Source: Streptomyces asiaticus (GTDB lineage: Bacteria > Actinomycetota > Actinomycetes > Streptomycetales > Streptomycetaceae). From it: a stretch of 64,000 bases of DNA. How positions within the stretch are numbered: the first letter of the stretch is position 1; the number at the start of each line of letters is the position of its first letter. The notes below the pieces were generated by a model. That model had not been told where the DNA came from and made no database searches. It was given only the letters and a program-made list of their open reading frames with translations. Made by a program: the position numbers and the translations under genes. The stretch covers positions 806,001-870,000 of the forward strand of contig NZ_JAGSHX010000001.1 in assembly GCF_018138715.1 (NCBI RefSeq), read 5' to 3'. Positions 42,804 to 55,047 of this stretch are shown here, one piece after another.

Positions 42804-43196
42804 ATGGCGCGCATGTTCCTCAACGGCCAGGCGATGGAGGGCGGCCCCTTCCATCACCATCTGCGCGGAGCCCCCCTCGTCGCCCGGACCCGCACCGCCC
42901 CCGGCCACCGCTTCTTCTCGATCCGGGACACCTGCCCCGGGCTACTGCCCGACCCCGCTGTCGGCACCGCGGTGGAGGGCGAGGTCTACGACATCCCCGA
43001 CGAGGTGCTGCGCGACCAACTGCTGCCCGCCGAGCCGCCGGAACTGGAGTTCGGGATCATCCGGCTCCAGGACGGTTCCGCGTCCTTCTCGATGGTCCTT
43101 TACCGCAGCGAGCTGGAGAGGGACGTCCACAAGGAGATCACCGACTTCCGTGGCTGGCGTCCGTACCTGAAGAGCCTCGGCGGGGAGCACTGGTGA
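42804..43196 (+). CDS. Allophanate-hydrolase C-terminal-like / gamma-glutamylcyclotransferase-fold protein
   Basis: A 130-residue protein. Seen: MFLNGQAMEGGPFHHHL at the start, ARTRTAPGHRFFSI, EVYDIPDEVL and ELEFGIIRLQDGSASFSMVLY; this is the pattern of the allophanate hydrolase C-terminal domain (PF21986), a gamma-glutamylcyclotransferase-like fold found also as a free protein. Known: free versions lie in actinomycete ureide and glyoxylate gene sets. Its stop overlaps the start of the hydroxypyruvate isomerase fragment (GTGA), so it led that former operon. GGGAG lies seven bases before the ATG. The full catalytic role is not established; intact here. Confidence 0.75.
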   Translation: MARMFLNGQAMEGGPFHHHLRGAPLVARTRTAPGHRFFSIRDTCPGLLPDPAVGTAVEGEVYDIPDEVLRDQLLPAEPPELEFGIIRLQDGSASFSMVLYRSELERDVHKEITDFRGWRPYLKSLGGEHW

Positions 43197-43478
43197 AGAG
43201 CCGTCTTCCCTGCACGGTCAATCTGTCGATCCTGTTCACCGAGCTGCCGCTGCTCGAGCGCCCGGCCGCCGCGAAGGCCGCGGGGTTCGACGCGGTCGAG
43301 TTCTGGTGGCCCTACCCGACGGCCGTGCCGACGGACGCGGAGGCCGATGCCTTCGTGCGGGCGGTGCGCGCCGCCGGTGTCCGCCTGACCGGCCTGAACT
43401 TCTTCGCCGGGGACATGCTCGGGGGCGACCGGGGCCTGGTCTCCTGGCCGGGCCGCGCCGCGGAGTTCCGCGACAACC
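43193..43478 (+). pseudogene. hyi: Hydroxypyruvate isomerase, 5' fragment
   Basis: Seen: the first 95 codons (NLSILFTELPLLERPAAAKAAGFDAVEFWWP, read in parts; then [31 protein letters not shown] in parts) match the N-terminus of hydroxypyruvate isomerase; after FRDN the similarity stops abruptly and the next bases, in another frame, belong to glyoxylate carboligase. Known: Hyi is about 258 residues and interconverts hydroxypyruvate and tartronate semialdehyde. Inferred: a deletion removed the last two thirds of this gene, the tartronate semialdehyde reductase gene that normally follows, and most of gcl. Confidence 0.85.
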
Positions 43479-43922
43479 GCCGATCCGGACGCCACCGTCG
43501 TCGCCCTCTCCGGCGACTACGACTTCCAATTCATGATCGAGGAACTCGCCGTCGGCGCCCAGTTCCAGATCCCCTACCTCCACATCGTCGTCAACAACGC
43601 CTACCTCGGTCTGATCCGCCAGGCGCAGCGCGGCTTCGACATGGACTACTGCGTCCAGCTGTCCTTCGACAACGTCAACGCCCCCGAGGTGGGCGGCTAC
43701 GGCGTCGACCACGTCAAGGTCGCCGAGGGGCTGGGCTGCAAGGCCGTCCGCGTGCTCGAGCCCGACCGCATCGCGCCCGCCCTCGAAGAGGCCAAGAAGC
43801 TGATGGCCGAGTACCGGGTACCGGTGGTTGTCGAGGTCATCCTCGAACGCGTCACCAACGTGTCCATGGGAACCGAACTCGACAACATCGCGGAGTTCGA
43901 GGAATTGGCCACCCCCGGGTGA
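43479..43922 (+). pseudogene. gcl: Glyoxylate carboligase, 3' fragment
   Basis: Seen: from 43479 the frame reads [19 protein letters not shown], then [39 protein letters not shown] and [18 protein letters not shown] up to a TGA at 43920-43922. These are the thiamine-diphosphate-binding GDxxxx-NN motif and C-terminus of glyoxylate carboligase. About 147 of some 590 residues remain. The internal ATG at 43533 could allow translation of an inactive stub. Known: Gcl condenses two glyoxylates to tartronate semialdehyde. The last residues (EFEELATPG) are followed at once by allantoicase coding sequence, a second deletion junction. Confidence 0.9.
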
Positions 43923-44500
43923 TGGGCGACGGATGGGAAACCCGCCGACGCCGCGGTGGCGGCAACGACTGGGTGATCGTCGAACTCGCCGCGCGCGGAC
44001 ATCTCACCCAAGCGGCGCTCGACACCTCGTACTTCATCGGAAACTCCCCGGGGTCGGCACGGCTGTGGGGCATCGACGCCACGGTGGCGGACCCGGACGA
44101 CCCCGGGGCCTGGTTCGACCTGCTGCCGCGCACCCGGCTCCAGCGGGACACCCGGCACCGCTTCCGTATCCACGCCTCCCGCCCCGTCAGCCACGTCAAG
44201 CTCGCCATCTATCCCGACGGTGGCCTGGCGCGGCTCCGGCTGTTCGGCGAGCCCACCCCCGCCGGCCTCGCCACGCTCGTATTGCGCTGGTTCGACCTGC
44301 TGCCCGCCGCCCAGGCGGTTCAGATCCTGATCACCGAGTGCGGCGCGGCACCGGCATGGGCGCGGGACGTCGTCGAAGGGCGCCCGCTGACCGATCCGGA
44401 CGGACTGGCCAAGGCGCTGGAGCGATGCGAGCCGCGCGTGGCCGCCCGCGTACGCGACCTGGTGCGACAGCCCCCTGACCGCGTCGACGGACGACGCCGG
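43922..44500 (+). pseudogene. Allantoicase 3' half with an OHCU-decarboxylase-like tail
   Basis: Seen: from an ATG overlapping the gcl stop, the frame reads MGDGWETRRRRGGGNDWVIV, LDTSYFIGNSPGSARLWG, FDLLPRTRLQRDTRHRF and YPDGGLARLRLFGEPTP, the second repeat of allantoicase. About 50 residues then follow (RWFDLLPAAQAVQILITECG, WARDVVEGRPLTDPDGL) that resemble the N-terminus of OHCU decarboxylase (UraD), after which similarity is lost. The first allantoicase repeat is missing. Known: both enzymes belong to urate-to-glyoxylate degradation. Inferred: a third deletion product; frame open but no complete enzyme. The UraD similarity is less certain than the allantoicase one. Confidence 0.75.
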
Positions 44501-44537
44501 ATGGATCGCCGCCCGGCCCGGAAGGAGAGGGGAACGA

Positions 44538-45328
44538 GTGCGCGTACTGATCGCGGCGGACAAGTTCAAGGGGTCGCCGCTGACCGCGGCTCAGGTGGCC
44601 GAACGGCTCACCGCCGGGCTCCGGCGGGCGGCCCCCCACGCGTCGGTCGTGTCCGTACCGGTCGCCGACGGCGGTGACGGGACGGTGGACGCCGCGGCCA
44701 TGGCCGGGTTCGGCCGGCGCGAGATACGCATGACCGGACCCGTGGGCAAGCCGGTGACCGCCGCCTACGCCCTGCGGAACGCCTCCGCGGTCGTCGAAGT
44801 GGCCGAGGCGTCCGGGCTGCGACACCTCCCGGCGGGCGGCTTCGCGCCGCTCACCGCCACGTCGTACGGCACCGGCGAAGTGCTGCGCGCCGCGCTGGAC
44901 GCCGGTGCCCGTTCGATCGCCCTGGGCGCGTCGGCGGCAGTGCGACGACGGCCGGCGGCACGAGGATGCTGGCGGCGCTCGGCGCGCGGTTCCTGGACGC
45001 CTCCGGCGCCTCGGTCGGCCCCGGCGGGGCCGCGCTGGCCCGGCTCGCGAAGGCCGACCTGTCCGATCTTGACCCCCGGCTCGCGGAGGTGGACCTCGTA
45101 CTGGCGAGCGACGTCGACAACCCGCTGCTCCGACCGAAGGGCGCGGCCGCGGTCTACGGGCCCCAAAAGGGCGCACCTCCAAAGGAGGTGGACATCCTCG
45201 AGGACGCCCTGCGCCACTACGCGCGAACGTGCGGAGCGCTCGGCACGGCCGGGGAACCCGGGGCCGGCGCGGCCGACGGCCCCGGCTTCGGCGCCCGCAC
45301 CGCACTGCGGGCACGGTTTCGCCCCGGA
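44538..45328 (+). pseudogene. Glycerate kinase, frameshifted and 3'-truncated
   Basis: Seen: GTG start and an intact N-terminus (VLIAADKFKGSPLTAAQVAE, PVADGGDGTVDA, ATSYGTGEVLRAALDAGAR), then a frameshift near 44930 at the expected LGxGGSATT loop into a frame reading GGSATTAGGTRMLAALGARF, LASDVDNPLLRPKGAA and YGPQKGAP. Coding similarity ends near GAGAADGPGFGARTALRARF at about 45325, about 120 residues short. Known: the family (GlxK/GarK) is about 370-380 residues and makes phosphoglycerate from glycerate, the last step of the glyoxylate route whose other genes are broken upstream. The truncated end abuts an IS200/IS605 relic. Not functional. Confidence 0.87.
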
Positions 45329-45537
45329 AAGGTGAAGTGGTCCCGTCCCGCACGTTGCCGTCGACGCCGTCCGCGGTGACGGTGGTCAAGGACTCGGCGG
45401 GCCGGTACGTCGCGTCCTTCGTCGTGGAGACCGGCCCGGAAGACCGCGCAGCGAAGCAGGAACCCACTCGACACCGCAGCGTTCAACGACGCGGTAGGCG
45501 GGAATCTCCCCCTTCAGGGGGGAGAGGATGTCAACCC
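45329..45537 (+). mobile_element. IS200/IS605-family (TnpB-type) right-end relic
   Basis: Seen: KVKWSRP then, in another frame, LPSTPSAVTVVKDSAGRYVASFVVET, the strand region just before the RuvC core of TnpB; then a jump to the element's 3' end, where one frame reads NPLDTAAFNDAVGGNLPLQGGEDV, and the hairpin CTCCCCC-TTCA-GGGGGGAG followed by AGGATGTCAA. Known: this C-terminus and subterminal hairpin are typical of Streptomyces IS605/IS1341-type elements. Inferred: an internally deleted copy; its left boundary is the truncation point of the glycerate kinase gene. Confidence 0.78.
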
Positions 45538-48714: not shown

Positions 48715-48990
48715 ATGGCGAGGGAGACCGACCGTGCCGCCTTGGCCGCCGAGGTGTGCTCCGCGCTGAGGCGGTGTTGCCCGGGCTCGAGCGCGGAGCT
48801 GGCCGGCTCGCTGGCATCAGGGGCGGCGGACGGCTTCAGCGACATCGAGATCGCGTGGGTGGTGCCGGACGCGCGGTTCCCGGAATGCCTGGCTCGTGGG
48901 GTGGAGGCGCTGGGCGAGGTCCAGCCGGTCGACAGCGTTCGCGGCGGCGCGGACTTCCACCGCTCCGACCGCCGCCGCCTGCTGTTCGAT
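48715..48990 (+). pseudogene. Nucleotidyltransferase N-terminal fragment
   Basis: Seen: about 90 codons reading RAALAAEVCSALRRCCPGSSA, then LAGSLASGAADGFSDIEIAWVVPD, the GS-x10-DxE catalytic loop of polymerase-beta-type nucleotidyltransferases (aminoglycoside adenylyltransferase-like), then VDSVRGGADFHRSDRRRLLF. Similarity stops at about 48985, where the 3' end of the convergent GntR gene begins. Known: complete enzymes are about 250 residues. Inferred: a truncated gene whose 3' part was replaced by the GntR block. The remaining fragment lacks the helical C-terminal domain. Confidence 0.68.
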
Positions 48991-49697
48991 CATGCTCGGC
49001 GATCGCGAGCGGGGGAGGCGCTGTCGGGCCGGGCCCAGTCGGAGCGGATGTGCAGCAGGTGCTGGCGGATCAGATCTTCCAGGCCGTTCATGTCATTGCG
49101 GGCGATCGCCTCGAGCATGTGGTGGTGCTCATGGGCGGAGCTGTCGAGAACCCCCCGTTCCGCAAGTGCCTCGAGGCCGTACAGCCGGGTCTGGTCCCGC
49201 ATCGCGGCGACAGTGGTCACCAGGCGCCGGTTGCCACAGAGTTGGAGCAGGCCGAGGTGGAAGCGCCGGTCCGCTTCGAGGAAGCCGACGACATCGCCTT
49301 CCCGAGCCGTTTTCTCGATCTCGTCTGCGATGACCGCCAGGCGCGTGAGGTCCTCAGGCTGGGCATTCGCGGCCGCTTGCAGCGTGCCGGGGACCTCCAA
49401 GAGCAACCGCATGGTGTAGACCTCGTCGAGGTCGTGCTCGCTCATGGGGATCACTCGGTAGCCGCGGTTGCGGACCGGCTCCATGAGGCCCTCGTTCACC
49501 AGTGTCAGCATGGCTTCCCGGACCGGGCTGCTGGAGACGCCCAGCCTGGTCGCCAGGGCCGCGGCCGAATAGATGTCTCCCGGTCGGATCTCCCCGGACA
49601 CCAGGGCCTGCCGGACCAGGGCGAGGACCTGTTCGCGCAGGTTCGTGCGCTGAAGCGGACCGGCCAGCGCGTCGGGTGCCATCGGTTCTCGGCTCAT
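48990..49697 (-). CDS. GntR-family regulator (FCD/FadR subfamily)
   Basis: A 235-residue regulator. Seen: start MSREPM at 49697 with GAAGAG close upstream; winged helix-turn-helix LREQVLALVRQALVSGEIRPGD, AALATRLGVSSSPVREAMLTL and NRGYRVIPM; then an all-helical FCD ligand domain with the metal-ligand pattern EADRRFHLGLL and HEHHHMLEAIARND. Known: FCD regulators sense carboxylates, sugar acids or amino acids and usually repress adjacent catabolic genes. It is divergent from the molybdoenzyme operon, with overlapping palindromes in the 93-bp gap. Inferred: local repressor of that operon. Confidence 0.94.
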   Translation of the reverse strand: MSREPMAPDALAGPLQRTNLREQVLALVRQALVSGEIRPGDIYSAAALATRLGVSSSPVREAMLTLVNEGLMEPVRNRGYRVIPMSEHDLDEVYTMRLLLEVPGTLQAAANAQPEDLTRLAVIADEIEKTAREGDVVGFLEADRRFHLGLLQLCGNRRLVTTVAAMRDQTRLYGLEALAERGVLDSSAHEHHHMLEAIARNDMNGLEDLIRQHLLHIRSDWARPDSASPARDRRA

Positions 49698-49746
49698 CTC
49701 TTCATCTCTTCTTGACGCGGCTCCCACCTGGATGCATCTTAGCGTC

Positions 49747-49778
49747 TTACCGGCGACCGGTGGCCGGTAACCGGTTAC
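49747..49778. promoter_or_regulatory. Overlapping palindromes, GntR operator
   Basis: Seen: TTACCGGC-N8-GCCGGTAA (49747-49770), and overlapping it the perfect palindrome GTAACCGGTTAC (49767-49778), ending 12 bp before the molybdoenzyme start codon. Inferred: operator of the divergent GntR regulator. Confidence 0.75.
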
Positions 49779-49790
49779 TCAGGAGTAATA

Positions 49791-52700
49791 ATGACTGAGA
49801 AGCAGGGGTACTGCACTCTGTGCCGCTCTCGATGTGGTGCCGTCTACACCATCGAGGCAGGCGCTCTGCGGGGAGTGCGGCCTGACCCCGAGCATCCGAC
49901 GGGCGCGGCGATGTGCCCGAAGGGACGGGCGGCACCAGAAATCGTGGACAGCCCCGACCGCCTGACCCAGCCGCTTCGGCGGACCACTCCCAAGTCCGAT
50001 CCGGACCCCAAGTGGGAGCCCATCGGCTGGGAGGAAGCGCTGAGCGAGACCGCCGAGAAACTGGGACGGATCAAGGCTCAGGACGGCGCGGAAGCTGTGG
50101 CCTTCGCCGTGACTTCGCCCAGTGCCACCGCACTGTCGGACTCCATCGACTGGATCGAGTGTTTCATCCGCCTCTTCGGCAGCCCCAACACCTGCTACTC
50201 CACTGAGGTCTGCAACTGGCACAAGGACTGGGCCCACGCCTTCACGTTCGGGAGTTCACTGCCGACCGCGGACTTCGCCGCAACGGACCTCGCCGTGCTC
50301 TGGGGTCACAACCCCGCCAAGACATGGCTGGCGCAGTCGGCGGCCCTCGCGCAAGCCCGAGCCGAGGGAGCCCGCCTGGCGGTCATCGACCCCCGCCGCT
50401 CGACCAGTGCGCTGGAAGCGGACCACTGGCTGCGTGTCCGCCCTGGTACGGACGCGGCCCTCGCCCTGGGCGTCGCCCGGCTCGTGCTGGAACGTCACGG
50501 CTACGACGACGAATTCGTTCGGGCCTGGACAAACGCTCCCCTGCTCGTTCGCCGTGACACAGGACGTTTTCTGCGTGCCCAGGAGGTTGATCCGGGCCTC
50601 GGCGGTTACGTCGTCTGGGACACCGTGGACGACACCTGGCGGCCGTACGACACGCTCCGCGCCGCGCGCAACCCCGACCGCTTCGCCCTGCACGGCACCC
50701 ATCGAGTGCGCCTACGTACCGGCACGGTCGACTGCGAGCCCGCCTTCGAGCGGTACCGGGACGCCTGCCGGCCATGGACCGTGGAGAAGACCGCCCGCAC
50801 CACCGGCATCGCCCCAGCGGAGCTGACCGCCTTCGCCGACGCACTCATCCGGGCACGGTCTGTCTCCTACCACGCGTGGACCGGCGTCGGGCAACACGCC
50901 AATGCCACCCAGACGGAGCGGGCCATCGCCACGCTGTACGCGCTGACCGGCAGCTACGACGCCCCCGGAGGCAACGTCATATGGCCGCGGCACGCCCTGA
51001 ATCCGGTCACCGACCTGACCCGGCTCCCGCACGGCCAGCGGGCCAAGGCCCTCGGCATGGCGGAACACCCACTTGGCCCTCCTGCCCAGGGCTGGATCAG
51101 CGGCCGGGATCTGTGCCGCGCGATCCTGTCCCAGGATCCCTATCCGGTACGGGCCCTGGTCGGATTCGGCAGCAACCTGGTGCTCTCACAGCCGGATCCA
51201 CGACGCACGGCCGCCGCTCTCCGCAACCTCGACTTCTACGTACACCTCGACCTCTTCCCCAACCCCACCTCCCAGTTCGCCGACATCGTGCTTCCGGTCA
51301 ACAGCCCCTGGGAACACGAGGCGATCAAGGCGGGATTCGAGATCAGCCGACGGGCTCAGGAACACGTCCAGCTCCGGCCGCGCATGGTGGAGCCGGTGGG
51401 GCAGTCCCGCTCCGACACCGAAGTCGTCTTCGACCTCGCCCAGCGTCTGGGCATGGGCGCCGACTTCTTCGACGGCGACGTCACGGACGGCTGGAATCAT
51501 CAGCTGAGGCCCCTGGGGCTGACCGTCGATGAGCTCCGCCGCCATCCCGGGGGCCTCCGGGTCCCCCTCGAAACGGTCTATCGCAAGTACGCCCAGAGCG
51601 CGGAAGACGGCCAGGTCACCGGGTTCGCCACCCCGACCCGACGGGTCGAGTTGTACTCGGAACGGCTCGCGCTGCACGGCTACTCCGCCGTCCCCGTCCA
51701 TTCCGCGCCCGGTACCGGACCCGACTCCCGCTACCCGTTGTCGCTGACATGCGCGAAGAACGGCCACTTCTGCCACAGCCAGCACCACGGGTTGTCCTCT
51801 CTCCGCAAGCGCAGCCCGGAGCCCACTGTCGACATCAGCCGGGCACTGGCACAGCGGCGCAACATCGGCGATGGCCAGTGGGTGGCGCTGTCCACGCGCA
51901 ATGGCTCGATCCGCATGCGCGCACGTATCGACCACGATCTGCACGATGACGTCGTGTGCGCCGAATACGGCTGGTGGCAGCAGGCTCCGGACCTGGCACT
52001 ACCGAGCTTCGATCCCTATGCCGAGACCGGCAGCAACTACAACCTCCTCATCGGCGACGACGTACGCGACCCGATCAGTGGGTCGGTGCCGATGAGGTCC
52101 GGCAGTTGCGACATCCAGCCCATCGCGACCTCTCATTGGGAGGGAACCAAGGAGTTCGTCATCGCCTCCGCCGTACCGGAAGGAGCCGACGTCCTGGCCC
52201 TGAGCCTGGAACCTGCCGACGGTTCGCAGCTGCCCGACTTCAGGCCGGGCCAGCACATCACCCTCGGCTTCCCCACCACCGACCCCGCGGGCGCGGAACG
52301 ATCAGCGGCACGTTGCTACTCCCTGACCGGCCCCGCGCAGGACAAGGGCCGCATGTCGTACAGCATCGCCGTACGCCGCGTGCCCGGCGGACAGGTCTCC
52401 GGCCGGATACACGCCACCGCGCGTGAGGGGAAGCGCGTACAACTGACGGCGCCGGCGGGACTCTTCGCCATCCCGCCCGACATCAGCCGGCCAGTCGTGC
52501 TCCTCGCCTCCGGAATCGGGATCACGCCGTTCATCGGCTACCTCGAGACACTGGCCCGCAGCGGCGGCAGCGTCCCCGAGGTCGTACTGCACCACGGCAG
52601 CCGGAATTCCACCTCACACGCCTTCCGGAACCGCACGAGCGAACTACGGGACCTCATCCGACAGCTACGCGTCCACACCCACTACAGCCGACCGGAACCC

Positions 52701-53177
52701 CACGACGTCCTCGGCCGCGATCACCACCACTTCGGACGCATCAGCGCCGCCGACGTCGATGCCCGACTCATCGAACGCCGCGCCCGGTTCTACCTCTGCG
52801 GGCCGGAGGACATGCTCTCCGACATCACCATCGGCCTGGTCGACCGAGGCGTGCCGCGCTTCGACATCTTCGCCGAAAAGTTCCACGTCGCCCCACAGCG
52901 CGTCGACGTCCCCGACAGCGCACAGGCCACCGTGCGCTTCACCCGCGCCAACCGCCAGGTCACCTGGCGCAAAGAGGACGGCACTCTGCTGCAACTGGCA
53001 GAGCGGGAAGGGATCCGTCTGCCCAGCGGCTGCCGCTTGGGCCAGTGCGAGAGCTGCGCCATCACCGTTCTGGACGGGCAGGTCGCGCATCTGGTCACCT
53101 GCCCGGAGGACCTGGCCGACGACCAGTGCCTGACCTGCCAGGCCATGCCCATGACCGACGTCACGCTCGACGCCTGA
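49791..53177 (+). CDS. Single-chain molybdopterin oxidoreductase fused to flavin reductase and [2Fe-2S] ferredoxin
   Basis: An 1128-residue cytosolic enzyme with three modules. Seen: residues 1-780 form a DMSO-reductase-family molybdoprotein with an N-terminal [4Fe-4S] site (Cys 8, 11, 15 and 42), a likely molybdenum ligand Cys 141 in TEVCNWHKD, and a C-terminal dinucleotide-binding barrel near LTCAKNGHFCHSQHHGLSSLRK. Residues about 785-1010 are a ferredoxin-reductase module with FAD motif RCYSLTGP and NAD(P) motif LLASGIGITPFIGYLE. Residues about 1040-1128 are a plant-type ferredoxin with Cys 1081, 1086, 1089 and 1116. Known: separate proteins normally supply these parts. Inferred: a self-sufficient NAD(P)H-linked reductase, or the reverse. 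No Tat signal. Substrate unknown; followed by an ornithine-cyclodeaminase-family gene. Confidence 0.93.
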   Translation: MTEKQGYCTLCRSRCGAVYTIEAGALRGVRPDPEHPTGAAMCPKGRAAPEIVDSPDRLTQPLRRTTPKSDPDPKWEPIGWEEALSETAEKLGRIKAQDGAEAVAFAVTSPSATALSDSIDWIECFIRLFGSPNTCYSTEVCNWHKDWAHAFTFGSSLPTADFAATDLAVLWGHNPAKTWLAQSAALAQARAEGARLAVIDPRRSTSALEADHWLRVRPGTDAALALGVARLVLERHGYDDEFVRAWTNAPLLVRRDTGRFLRAQEVDPGLGGYVVWDTVDDTWRPYDTLRAARNPDRFALHGTHRVRLRTGTVDCEPAFERYRDACRPWTVEKTARTTGIAPAELTAFADALIRARSVSYHAWTGVGQHANATQTERAIATLYALTGSYDAPGGNVIWPRHALNPVTDLTRLPHGQRAKALGMAEHPLGPPAQGWISGRDLCRAILSQDPYPVRALVGFGSNLVLSQPDPRRTAAALRNLDFYVHLDLFPNPTSQFADIVLPVNSPWEHEAIKAGFEISRRAQEHVQLRPRMVEPVGQSRSDTEVVFDLAQRLGMGADFFDGDVTDGWNHQLRPLGLTVDELRRHPGGLRVPLETVYRKYAQSAEDGQVTGFATPTRRVELYSERLALHGYSAVPVHSAPGTGPDSRYPLSLTCAKNGHFCHSQHHGLSSLRKRSPEPTVDISRALAQRRNIGDGQWVALSTRNGSIRMRARIDHDLHDDVVCAEYGWWQQAPDLALPSFDPYAETGSNYNLLIGDDVRDPISGSVPMRSGSCDIQPIATSHWEGTKEFVIASAVPEGADVLALSLEPADGSQLPDFRPGQHITLGFPTTDPAGAERSAARCYSLTGPAQDKGRMSYSIAVRRVPGGQVSGRIHATAREGKRVQLTAPAGLFAIPPDISRPVVLLASGIGITPFIGYLETLARSGGSVPEVVLHHGSRNSTSHAFRNRTSELRDLIRQLRVHTHYSRPEPHDVLGRDHHHFGRISAADVDARLIERRARFYLCGPEDMLSDITIGLVDRGVPRFDIFAEKFHVAPQRVDVPDSAQATVRFTRANRQVTWRKEDGTLLQLAEREGIRLPSGCRLGQCESCAITVLDGQVAHLVTCPEDLADDQCLTCQAMPMTDVTLDA

Positions 53178-53206
53178 CCGCCTGACCGCCTGATCGAAAG
53201 ACGACG

Positions 53207-54163
53207 ATGCTGAATATCGACGCCCAACAGACCATCAACGCACTGCCGTTCCACGACCTCATCCCCGCGCTCCGGCAAGGTTTCGTTCACGGCGCCAGCA
53301 CTCCTGCCCGCCACCACCACACCGTCGACGCCGATACCGACGCCACCATCCTGCTCATGCCCGCCTGGTCCCATCGCGAGTTCCTGGGTGTCAAGCTCGT
53401 CAACGTCTTTCCCGCCAATGCCCGCCACGGCAGGCCGGCCCTGTCCTCCGCGTTCGTTCTGGCCAGCGCCGCCACCGGGGAGCACCTGGCCATCATCGAC
53501 GGCAATGAACTGACCCGGCGCCGCACCGTGGCGACCTCCGCTCTGGCCGCCACCTACCTCGCACGACCCGGGAGCACCACCCACCTGGTGGTCGGAGCGG
53601 GGCATGTGGGCAGTCTCGTCGCCGAGGCCTACCGCAGCGTCCTCGACATCCGGACAGTGCTCGTCTACGACCGGACCGTCAGCCACGCCCATCGCCTGGC
53701 CGACACCCTGAGGCAACAGGGGCTCGATGCCCGTCCTGTCGCCGACCTGGCCCCCGCGGCCGGCGAAGCCGACATCATCAGCTGTGCCACCCTTGCCACC
53801 GAGCCCGTCATCAAGGGCGACTGGCTGCAACCCGGCACCCACCTCGACCTCATCGGCAGCTTCCGCCCCACCATGCGAGAGGCTGACGACCAGTGCGTAC
53901 GCCGCGGCACCATCTTCATCGACACACCACAGGCCCTGCGCGAATCCGGTGATCTGACTCAGCCCATGGATGCCGGCCTCCTCACCCCGGACGACATCGC
54001 CGGCACCCTGCCCGACCTGTGCGCCGGCACCATCCCCGGCCGCCGTACCCAGGAAGAGATCACCGTCTTCAAATCGGTCGGCAGCGCACTCGCCGACCTC
54101 ACCGCCGCCTCGGTGGTCTACCGCTCACACGGTGGCGCCCGCGCCGGTTCCTCGCGGCGGTGA
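53207..54163 (+). CDS. Ornithine cyclodeaminase/mu-crystallin family protein
   Basis: A 318-residue NAD(P)-dependent enzyme. Seen: N-terminal MLNIDAQQTINALPFHDLIPAL, the substrate loop GVKLVNVFPANARHGRPALSS, IIDGNELTRRRTVATSALAA, Rossmann motif LVVGAGHVGSLVAEAY, and IGSFRPTMREADDQCV. All hallmarks of the OCD/mu-crystallin family (PF02423). Known: members include ornithine cyclodeaminase, ketimine and pyrroline-2-carboxylate reductases, and alanine dehydrogenases. It lies 29 bp after the molybdoenzyme and is surely co-transcribed. Inferred: acts on a cyclic imine or amino acid that is the substrate or product of the molybdoenzyme. The GxGxxG-type sequence suggests NAD preference but is not decisive. 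Confidence 0.92.
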   Translation: MLNIDAQQTINALPFHDLIPALRQGFVHGASTPARHHHTVDADTDATILLMPAWSHREFLGVKLVNVFPANARHGRPALSSAFVLASAATGEHLAIIDGNELTRRRTVATSALAATYLARPGSTTHLVVGAGHVGSLVAEAYRSVLDIRTVLVYDRTVSHAHRLADTLRQQGLDARPVADLAPAAGEADIISCATLATEPVIKGDWLQPGTHLDLIGSFRPTMREADDQCVRRGTIFIDTPQALRESGDLTQPMDAGLLTPDDIAGTLPDLCAGTIPGRRTQEEITVFKSVGSALADLTAASVVYRSHGGARAGSSRR

Positions 54164-54193
54164 CCAAGGCGGTTCCGGCCACGGCCGGCGTGT

Positions 54194-54340
54194 CAGTTCC
54201 CCTTCTACGCCGGCATCGCCGCCATCATGACCAAAGCCACCAACGGCTCAGGCGACAGCCTGTCCCACTACCTGGCCTCAGCCTTCACCGGCGTCGGATC
54301 CCCGGCCCTCTTCCCGCTGATGATGGGCGGGCGCGCAGGT
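54194..54340 (+). pseudogene. Short-chain fatty acid transporter fragment
   Basis: Seen: 49 codons reading QFPFYAGIAAIMTKATNGSG and HYLASAFTGVGSPALFPLMM, with no start and no natural end. Known: QFPFYAGI-MG in this context is typical of AtoE-like short-chain fatty acid transporters (TIGR00366). Inferred: the middle of a third operon gene, deleted on both sides, which would have imported a carboxylate substrate for the upstream operon. Short, so the family call is tentative. Confidence 0.5.
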
Positions 54341-54357: not shown

Positions 54358-55047
54358 TCAGATGACTTTGAGCAGGCGTTCCGCCAGGGGGGATGCCGAC
54401 GCGGGGTTCTGTCCGGTGTACAGGTTGCGGTCGACCACCGTGTAGGGCTTCCATTTCTCTCCCTTGGTGAAGTCGACGCCGAGTGCGATGAGCTCGGTCT
54501 CCAGTGTCCAGCGGGCCCTCTTGGCAAGGCCGACCTCCTCCTCTTCCTCGTTGGTGAAGCCGGTGACCCGGTAGCCGATGAAGGGCGATTTCCCGTGGAT
54601 CCTGGTCGCCAGCATCGCTGCCGGGGCGTGGCAGACGATGGCGAGGGGTTTACCGGAGGGCAGGGCCTCCGTCAGCAGGCGGCCGACGTCGGCGTCGACG
54701 CTCAGGTCTTCCATGGGACCGTGGCCGCCGGGGAGGTAGACGGCGTCGTAGTCGTCCAGCCGGGCGTTCGCGAGGTGGATCGGGCGCCGCATCACTTCCG
54801 CGGAGCGGATGATCGCCTCCAGATCGAGTGCGATCTGCGCGCTGCCCGCCATAGCGGGTCGCAGGCTCATCATGTCCACCGTCGGAACGGCCCCGCCGGG
54901 GGTGGCGACGGTGATCTCGTGGCCCGCCTCGGTGAGGGCCTTGTAGGGGGCGGCGAACTCTTCAGCCCAGTAGCCGGTCGCGTACCTGGTGCCGTCCTTG
55001 AGCGTCCAGTAGGGCGTACCGGTCATCACGAAAAGTACCTTGGCCAT
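54358..55047 (-). CDS. DJ-1/PfpI family protein, Hsp31-like
   Basis: A 229-residue class I glutamine amidotransferase-like protein. Seen: N-terminal AKVLFVMTGTPYWTLKDGTR, TGYWAEEFAAPYKALTEAGHEI, the Glu of the triad in the GYWAEE segment, YDAVYLPGGHGPMEDLS, and the nucleophile elbow PLAIVCHAPAAML with Cys-His adjacent. Known: Hsp31-type members act as glyoxalase III or deglycases and chaperones. Full length and complete triad. ATG 55047 stands 212 bp from a divergent gene. Inferred: cytosolic detoxification of reactive carbonyls. Confidence 0.93.
   Translation of the reverse strand: MAKVLFVMTGTPYWTLKDGTRYATGYWAEEFAAPYKALTEAGHEITVATPGGAVPTVDMMSLRPAMAGSAQIALDLEAIIRSAEVMRRPIHLANARLDDYDAVYLPGGHGPMEDLSVDADVGRLLTEALPSGKPLAIVCHAPAAMLATRIHGKSPFIGYRVTGFTNEEEEEVGLAKRARWTLETELIALGVDFTKGEKWKPYTVVDRNLYTGQNPASASPLAERLLKVI

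Follow-up and report, generated by a model that had tools for sequence, protein, structure and literature searches.

In the window, that is the whole stretch of 64,000 nucleotides of Streptomyces asiaticus DNA that was analysed, a gene for a molybdoenzyme fused to its own reductase is followed by a gene of the ornithine cyclodeaminase (OCD) family. This fusion-OCD pair is a conserved, recurrent unit in Actinomycetota and Pseudomonadota. Tentatively, and with somewhat less than an even chance of being right, we propose that a small N-heterocyclic carboxylate, best matched by pyrrole-2-carboxylate, is imported and that the pair reduces it in two steps to a cyclic amino acid. Slightly more doubtful is the specific form of this proposal, in which the fusion would be an NAD(P)H-driven, ATP-independent molybdenum (Mo) reductase that dearomatises pyrrole-2-carboxylate to pyrroline-2-carboxylate within an aerobic reductive pyrrole-to-proline pathway. 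Gene layout, conserved linkage, co-occurrence and two gene swaps were observed, whereas substrate identity, ketimine product and reductive direction are what we infer here. The features of the operon are the following:

49791..53177, + strand: gene of the self-sufficient molybdoenzyme fusion, 1128 aa (open reading frame, Pfam, NCBIfam, alignment, orthologues)
49791..52115, + strand: Mo catalytic module, [4Fe-4S]/bis-pterin, residues ~1-775, Mo-ligand candidate Cys141 (Pfam)
52128..52886, + strand: flavin adenine dinucleotide (FAD)/NAD(P) reductase module, residues ~780-1032 (PF00175; flavohemoprotein/BenC/PaaE-type matches)
52923..53177, + strand: plant-type [2Fe-2S] ferredoxin module, residues ~1045-1128 (PF00111; invariant cysteines C1081/1086/1089/1116)
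53207..54163, + strand: OCD-family ketimine reductase gene (NF004793), 29 bp after the fusion gene
54133..54329, + strand: relic of a short-chain carboxylate transporter (PF02667 SCFA_trans; TIGR00366-like), 197 bp (blastn to L030)

The molybdoenzyme fusion and its operon

An earlier note on this DNA had described a chain of 1128 residues with three modules, an OCD-type gene 29 bp behind it and a carboxylate transporter relic after that. All three were borne out: the first by the open reading frame, the Pfam domains and the invariant motif residues, the second by the coordinates given above and the third by a blastn alignment to the orthologous locus L030. The Pfam domains of the fusion all exceed their gathering scores, namely Molybdop_Fe4S4 (residues 2-53; 27.3 vs 22.7 bits), Molybdopterin (57-551; 122.2 vs 24 bits), Molydop_binding (651-767; 72.4 vs 26.8 bits), NAD_binding_1 (904-1011) and Fer2 (1061-1120). 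Pfam calls no FAD-binding domain in the window's fusion, while PF00970 is present in several close relatives. The motif R-x-Y-S-L (R841, Y843, S844, L845) is invariant across 46 aligned fusions, comprising that of the window and 45 others with 48-75% identity to it. Equally invariant in these sequences are the [4Fe-4S] cysteines C8/C11/C15/C42, the Mo-ligand candidate C141 and the [2Fe-2S] cysteines C1081/C1086/C1089/C1116. C141 aligns with a cysteine of acetylene hydratase (2e7z) and with that of thiosulfate reductase (2vpw), and a match to the GbcB model spans residues 776-1127. No signal peptide of the fusion was obvious by eye.

The window's genome (G000) comprises 11.9 Mb, and the named relatives closest to it are violaceusniger-type Streptomyces. 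Full-length orthologues of the fusion with 93% identity were found in five loci (L030-L034). Compared with four of these (L030-L033), the ratio of nonsynonymous to synonymous substitution rates (dN/dS) of the fusion gene is 0.21-0.22, and because this indicates purifying selection the gene is not a pseudogene. The corresponding values of the OCD gene are 0.25-0.51 against L030, L032 and L033, a short and noisier comparison than that of the Mo gene.

Several known identities were considered for the fusion and rejected. It scores 229.5 bits with the formate dehydrogenase alpha model (TIGR01591; cut-off 666) and 138.5 bits with that of the assimilatory nitrate reductase NasC (NF047855; cut-off 1100). 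More generally, the labels nitrate reductase, formate dehydrogenase and dimethyl sulfoxide (DMSO)/trimethylamine N-oxide-type reductase were dropped, since the scores lie far under the curated cut-offs among the matches listed; in none of the 25 NCBIfam matches listed, of 40, did the fusion reach such a cut-off.

The window's OCD protein passes the model NF004793, named for pyrroline-2-carboxylate/piperideine-2-carboxylate reductase, with 403.7 bits (cut-off 322). The OCD proteins of eight relatives, scored one by one, pass it as well (344-439 bits), and all nine stay far below the cut-offs of the alanine-dehydrogenase and iminosuccinate-reductase models. The suggestion made earlier that an imine would be handled by the OCD enzyme is in line with this match.

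The transporter relic aligns with an internal part of the L030 transporter gene (92% over 202 columns). Compared with L030, the window carries a 975-bp deletion that begins ~30 bp short of where the OCD gene of L030 ends and also replaced the last few residues of the window's OCD protein. It is followed by a 5-bp deletion, and beyond 54329, where the similarity stops, the rest of the transporter gene is lost. An intact homologue is found in Rhodococcus (L021, 14376-15830; PF02667 SCFA_trans, 285.6 bits). The window's operon holds the relic and no full-length SCFA_trans carrier; elsewhere in the window's genome PF02667 finds no match, and the relic itself scores below the cut-off. Consequently, the window strain, being without the carrier, must either import the substrate by another route or possess a system that has partly decayed.

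Linkage and co-occurrence of the fusion and its partners

For a comparison of neighbourhoods, a GTDB-wide scan of species genomes yielded 317 pattern stretches, of which 256 encode relatives of the fusion. The best 80 were kept, a set that leans towards the window, and together with nine plasmid loci they give 89 compared loci. Linkage was counted over the 80 genome loci, with contig ends taken as they stand. An OCD gene lies within 3.5 kb of the fusion in 51 of the 80, always on the strand of the Mo gene and with a median gap of 38 bp; one of these (L091) has a divergent OCD homologue of 30% identity. The transporter is near the fusion in 46/80 loci and both partners occur in 42/80, while 25/80 show neither. 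The order of the genes varies, with the transporter last, first or between and the OCD gene before or after the fusion, which speaks against the mere inheritance of a single fixed block.

Pairwise protein distances were compared as well. Those of Mo and OCD proteins correlate with r = 0.80 (n = 51; at most 0.14 in 999 permutations) and those of Mo and transporter proteins with r = 0.64 (n = 39; at most 0.15 in 999 permutations), although related rows are not independent in these correlations. In a Mo tree of 90 rows, calculated by a quick method and with long branches, OCD-linked members extend from Burkholderiaceae to Streptomyces. We count the transporter among the components of the system.

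Within-group genome sets, drawn evenly, allowed us to count co-occurrence; since genomes within groups are related, the p values overstate independence. Among 150 Burkholderiaceae (centre G475 counted), 13 contain the fusion, 13 an OCD protein over the cut-off and 11 both (Fisher p = 4e-13), i.e., 11/13 genomes with the fusion vs 2/137 without it. All 11 pairs lie within 1.6 kb, ten of them adjoining and that of G843 ~1.5 kb apart. Among 130 Pseudonocardiaceae (centre G470 counted), eight contain the full fusion, eight the OCD protein and six both (Fisher p = 1.3e-7), which corresponds to 6/8 genomes with the fusion vs 2/122 without; five pairs are adjacent and that of G957 is on different contigs. 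Across the Actinomycetes, OCD proteins over the cut-off occur in 4/394 genomes, including both with a full fusion. The class of G475 gave such proteins in 8/252 genomes, seven of the eight being different from the three in which a fusion match was found. G674, which holds a full-length fusion in this class, is absent from the OCD-positive genomes, but may not have been drawn for the OCD survey. All 19 genomes whose fusion has an OCD neighbour contain an OCD protein over the cut-off. None was found in the 18 genomes tested from the 25 in which both partners are missing near the fusion, while weaker OCD-family matches occur in all 18 genomes without an OCD neighbour and likewise in 10/14 control genomes.

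Thus the tabulation of neighbours recommended in the earlier note shows recurrence of OCD in 51 and an adjacent GntR gene in 30 of 80 loci. The same note had held that fusions in varied contexts without OCD would speak against the proposed system, and this is partly the case: given the 25 loci without either partner, the fusion is a wider family, one part of which works with OCD. These loci also fit a different explanation, namely that the fusion is a general detoxifying S- or N-oxide reductase and that OCD was carried along by chance in a mobile catabolic island; distant homologues in metal-resistance regions of enterobacterial plasmids point the same way. However, linkage across phyla despite changed gene order and regulator, the correlated distances and the co-occurrence statistics all disagree with chance carriage, which we consider very improbable.

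Proposed pathway

In the proposed first step, electrons of NAD(P)H would pass via FAD, the [2Fe-2S] and the [4Fe-4S] cluster to a Cys-ligated bis-pterin Mo centre, all on one chain. A two-electron reduction of the substrate would there deliver a cyclic ketimine, most likely delta1-pyrroline-2-carboxylate (Pyr2C). In the second step, the OCD enzyme would use NAD(P)H to reduce Pyr2C to L-proline, and this amino acid could then enter central metabolism. The OCD step is expected to be favourable and would pull the first reduction. In many relatives, a short-chain-carboxylate carrier would import the substrate and a GntR or LysR regulator would sense it.

NAD(P)H reductases of oxygenase systems normally send electrons away from NAD(P)H. 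Since the fused module resembles such reductases, the Mo centre would reduce its substrate, and the direction of the reaction is probably reductive. Two successive reductions that end in proline need a substrate four electrons above it. Pyrrole-2-carboxylate (C5H5NO2) is more oxidised than Pyr2C by two electrons and than proline (C5H9NO2) by four, with no extra atom, and is for this reason the best fit. A substrate without an amino group also fits because the carrier belongs to a short-chain fatty acid family.

As for which INTERMEDIATE, a cyclic ketimine is probably delivered by the molybdoenzyme and reduced by the OCD enzyme to L-proline or L-pipecolate. This is based on the name of the OCD model, on a gene swap in genome G768 and on OCD copies that adjoin genes of the DAO family. 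The operon of G768 consists of a LysR gene, a transporter gene, an Ldh_2-family gene and then the fusion, and no OCD protein over the cut-off exists in this genome. The closest PDB match of the Ldh_2 protein are the DpkA structures, delta1-piperideine-2-carboxylate (Pip2C) reductase, with 239 bits (next 128), while its NCBIfam scores are below all cut-offs. In the accessible part of PMC4113996, Pyr2C reductases are assigned to the OCD or MLD2 superfamilies, and on this ground it looks as if the Ldh_2 gene replaced OCD as an unrelated ketimine reductase.

The strongest of the rivals is a reduction of an N-O bond, in which an N-oxygenated carboxylate (a cyclic nitrone, N-hydroxy or oximino acid) would be converted to an imine and then by OCD to proline, alanine or a similar amino acid. 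This reading, on balance unlikely, has the same electron count as the route from pyrrole-2-carboxylate. DMSO-reductase-type enzymes usually perform oxygen-atom chemistry, alanine dehydrogenase and iminosuccinate reductase are among the relatives of OCD, and a distant homologue (46%) is located among nitric-oxide-stress genes in Sphingobium (L026). On the other hand, the nine scored OCD proteins pass the Pyr2C/Pip2C model and miss those of the two other enzymes, the DpkA-like swap indicates a cyclic ketimine, and we know of no common natural cyclic nitrone acid.

We further examined 17 OCD copies that lie away from any fusion (G840, G849, second copies of G875, G476 and G479, and G494, G567, G682, G541, G623, G554, G635, G919, G920, G957, G385 and G424). 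In G840, G849 and G875 the copy adjoins a DAO-family (D-amino-acid-dehydrogenase-like) gene, which suggests that such DAO-OCD pairs convert a D-amino acid via a ketimine to the L-amino acid. The fusion might then take the place of the DAO enzyme and dehydrogenate D-proline or a different amino acid with NAD(P)+, while OCD would restore the L form. Among the readings weighed here this oxidative version is the least probable. At ~-0.12 V, the potential of the proline/pyrroline-carboxylate couple is much higher than that of NAD(P)+/NAD(P)H, a flavoenzyme would do the job more simply, and the linked carrier belongs to a carboxylate rather than an amino-acid family.

Neighbouring catabolic genes bear on the choice between proline and pipecolate. 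In Rhodococcus L021, proline dehydrogenase, pruA, a PucR regulator and an NAD-glutamate dehydrogenase are encoded within 10 kb, and its near twin L037 also has proline dehydrogenase and pruA nearby. Glutamate dehydrogenase is found downstream in six Amycolatopsis loci, five times directly and once (L053) after the transporter; the one that was scored (L042) is NADP-specific and over the cut-off. A pipecolate version of the pathway, with four-electron reduction of picolinate or hydroxypicolinate to Pip2C and OCD forming L-pipecolate, would agree with NF004793 being named for both Pyr2C and Pip2C and with DpkA structures being labelled Pip2C reductase. However, it requires two successive two-electron steps on the pyridine ring, the Rhodococcus and Amycolatopsis genes serve proline and glutamate, and none of the products annotated at the nine plasmid loci is named for aminoadipate. 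We regard it as decidedly unlikely.

Several points weigh against the proposed route from pyrrole-2-carboxylate to proline. The substrate was chosen by electron counting and transporter type only, and the name of NF004793 is an annotation. By a rough estimate from gas-phase heats of formation, pyrrole reduction lies near the thermodynamic limit set by the NAD(P)H potential, and to our knowledge reduction of a pyrrole ring with NAD(P)H by a Mo enzyme has no precedent. The DpkA-like swap is a single case in one genome (loci L134/L194), with no match to this gene in the four other transporter-linked, OCD-less loci (L074, L081, L102, L104). A DAO gene adjoins just 3 of the 17 OCD copies and lies ~1.3 kb off in one more; near the other 13, a tblastn search with one DAO protein gave no match, and neighbours were varied where scored. 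Of the three DAO genes, the two that were scored have D-amino acid dehydrogenase as best NCBIfam row but stay below every cut-off, and the one compared with the PDB is closest to glycine oxidases. No pyrrole gene marks the fusion loci, neither partner is present at 25 of 80 of them, and some rhizobial members (L022; L097 and L103 by clustering) are found beside ABC-carrier genes. Finally, the open-licence literature yielded neither biochemical nor growth data on any fusion of this family.

Relation to known systems

DMSO-reductase-family enzymes normally take electrons from separate subunits. The fusion belongs to this (MopB) superfamily near acetylene hydratase (2e7z) and PhsA/PsrA (2vpw), with which it shares the [4Fe-4S] and bis-pterin domains and the metal-ligand cysteine, but its single chain also includes an FAD/NAD(P) and [2Fe-2S] reductase. 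The class of acetylene hydratase, a non-redox enzyme without an electron-supply module, consequently does not accommodate it. In turn, the order flavin - NAD(P) - C-terminal [2Fe-2S] is that of NAD(P)H reductases of the phthalate-dioxygenase-reductase/PaaE/GbcB type, which feed an oxygenase, whereas the window's module would feed a Mo centre on the same chain. By passing the curated cut-off, the window's OCD protein joins the OCD-superfamily Pyr2C/Pip2C reductases (NF004793; PDB 6t3e, named Pyr2C reductase), its ketimine reductase relatives. The relative of DpkA (MLD2 superfamily; 1wtj/2cwf/2cwh; Pfam Ldh_2), absent from the window, sits in the OCD slot of one operon, that of G768.

In the pathway treated in the accessible part of PMC4113996, the OCD partner is trans-3-hydroxyproline dehydratase instead of a molybdoenzyme. 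As far as the available text of PMC12899673 goes, pyrrole-2-carboxylate metabolism was called known but poorly understood in 2026, and aerobic catabolism proceeds via a flavin oxygenase of Arthrobacter or via decarboxylases. If our proposal is right, the starting compound would be the same, yet this is oxygenase and decarboxylase chemistry, with no molybdenum in the titles (PMC12899673). A MopB review (PMC10100899) mentions no fusions of the present kind in any of the 12 places read out of 13 relevant ones. Open-licence literature yielded no paper on the fusion-OCD pair or the function of the fusion, and a search for homarine, oximes and pyrroline-2-carboxylate together with molybdopterin found none either, which is consistent with the earlier statement that no pathway with this pair is described. 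While the component families are known, the fusion architecture and the pathway appear undescribed.

If true, the proposal would assign a function to a self-sufficient molybdoenzyme family across Actinomycetota and Pseudomonadota, with a short and testable list of substrates, and would fill a gap in pyrrole-2-carboxylate metabolism. A ring-reducing Mo enzyme that depends on NAD(P)H only would extend the chemistry of the DMSO reductase superfamily known to us. As it may need no partner proteins, such a one-chain Mo reductase would also be attractive as a biocatalyst.

Members without OCD

To compare members with and without OCD, the majority residue of each group was determined at the 235 Mo-module columns that are conserved among 54 sequences linked to OCD. 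It differs at only one column in five OCD-less Amycolatopsis, which therefore probably kept the reaction, and at one in a mixed set of eight. Nocardia/Streptomyces (14), the S. violens group (11), Photorhabdus (14) and two enterobacterial plasmids (15) differ more often, and judged from these residues the four groups may act on other compounds.

The neighbourhoods of such members are diverse. In Nocardia L052 and L054 (genes scored in the former, clustered in the latter), the OCD-less fusion is near a carrier of the Xan_ur_permease family (xanthine/uracil-type), an IclR regulator and a phenolic-acid-decarboxylase-like gene, which hints at a heteroaromatic substrate. Large conjugative plasmids of Klebsiella (L024) and Enterobacter (L029) carry fusions of 47% identity near CueR regulators or metal P-type ATPases, without OCD or transporter. 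On the Sphingobium plasmid pF1 (L026, 8001-11324), the 46% fusion has nitric-oxide reductase, truncated haemoglobin and an Rrf2 regulator as neighbours. Peptidase S58-family genes lie within several kb of OCD-less fusions of Photorhabdus (L078, L080, L082, L083) and of two Pseudonocardiaceae genomes (L170, L171, L197). A sister group of 43-47% identity (L200-L204 in G250, G982, G688, G929 and G1004) matches the Mo module only (residues ~5-779).

Distribution

In a protein search in which 8000 candidates were scored, identity to the window's fusion is 57-92% for the best 120 of 2948 matches, which carry Molybdopterin, Molydop_binding, Fer2 and NAD_binding_1. In the evenly drawn group surveys (Actinomycetes, class of G475, Burkholderiaceae, Pseudonocardiaceae) the fusion is rare. 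Of 394 Actinomycetes genomes, two, including that of the window, have it full-length, with one partial Mo-only match in addition; the OCD coordinates of the second genome (G433) are identical to those of the genome of L073. The class of G475 gave 2/274 genomes (one being the centre) plus one partial match, Burkholderiaceae 13/150 and Pseudonocardiaceae 8/130 with the full fusion plus three partial Mo-only matches.

In G012, of the same genus, the Mo and reductase parts of a 65% relative are 1.57 Mb apart (L198, L199), and a natural two-subunit form was considered but rejected. The Mo match stops near residue 690, the stretch of residues 603-689 is also present inverted beside it and nothing matches residues 691-744, so that this copy looks broken by rearrangement or misassembled.

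Regulation

Upstream of the fusion gene, the following features were found:

48990..49697, - strand: GntR/FCD-family regulator gene (GntR, FCD Pfam domains), divergent from the operon, with an ATG start at 49697
49712..49740, + strand: putative operon promoter TTGACG - 17 nt - CATCTT, predicted by reading the sequence
49765..49780, strand-neutral: candidate GntR operator, palindrome CGGTAACCGGTTACtc, from a pattern search

Both domains of the regulator exceed their gathering scores (GntR 48.3 vs 27 bits; FCD 92.7 vs 24.3 bits), and a longer form that starts with GTG at 49727 is possible. Across 31 GntR-divergent upstream regions, window included, the 8-mers CTTGACTT and GCATCTTA recur on either strand and at any position in 15 and 13 regions, respectively; the window has TTGACG in place of CTTGACTT. 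The operator pattern CGGTAAYCGRTTACCG occurs with up to two mismatches in 27/31 regions and with up to three in 31/31 (shuffled means 0.005 and 0.025), a test that is partly circular, as the pattern was derived from the same regions. Control by GntR, as claimed in the earlier note, thus fits the actinobacterial members with their putative palindrome; GntR homologues are adjacent in 30/80 loci. It does not extend to the 24/80 loci with LysR instead, which are proteobacterial.

Minor observations in the window

Directly after the transporter relic, a DJ-1/PfpI-like gene (type 1 glutamine amidotransferase-like; 54358-55047, - strand) was recognised by eye from its translation. Some kb upstream of the operon (43193-45379, + strand), hydroxypyruvate-isomerase-type and glycerate kinase-like frames each seem, by eye, to shift midway, which suggests decayed or mis-sequenced genes.

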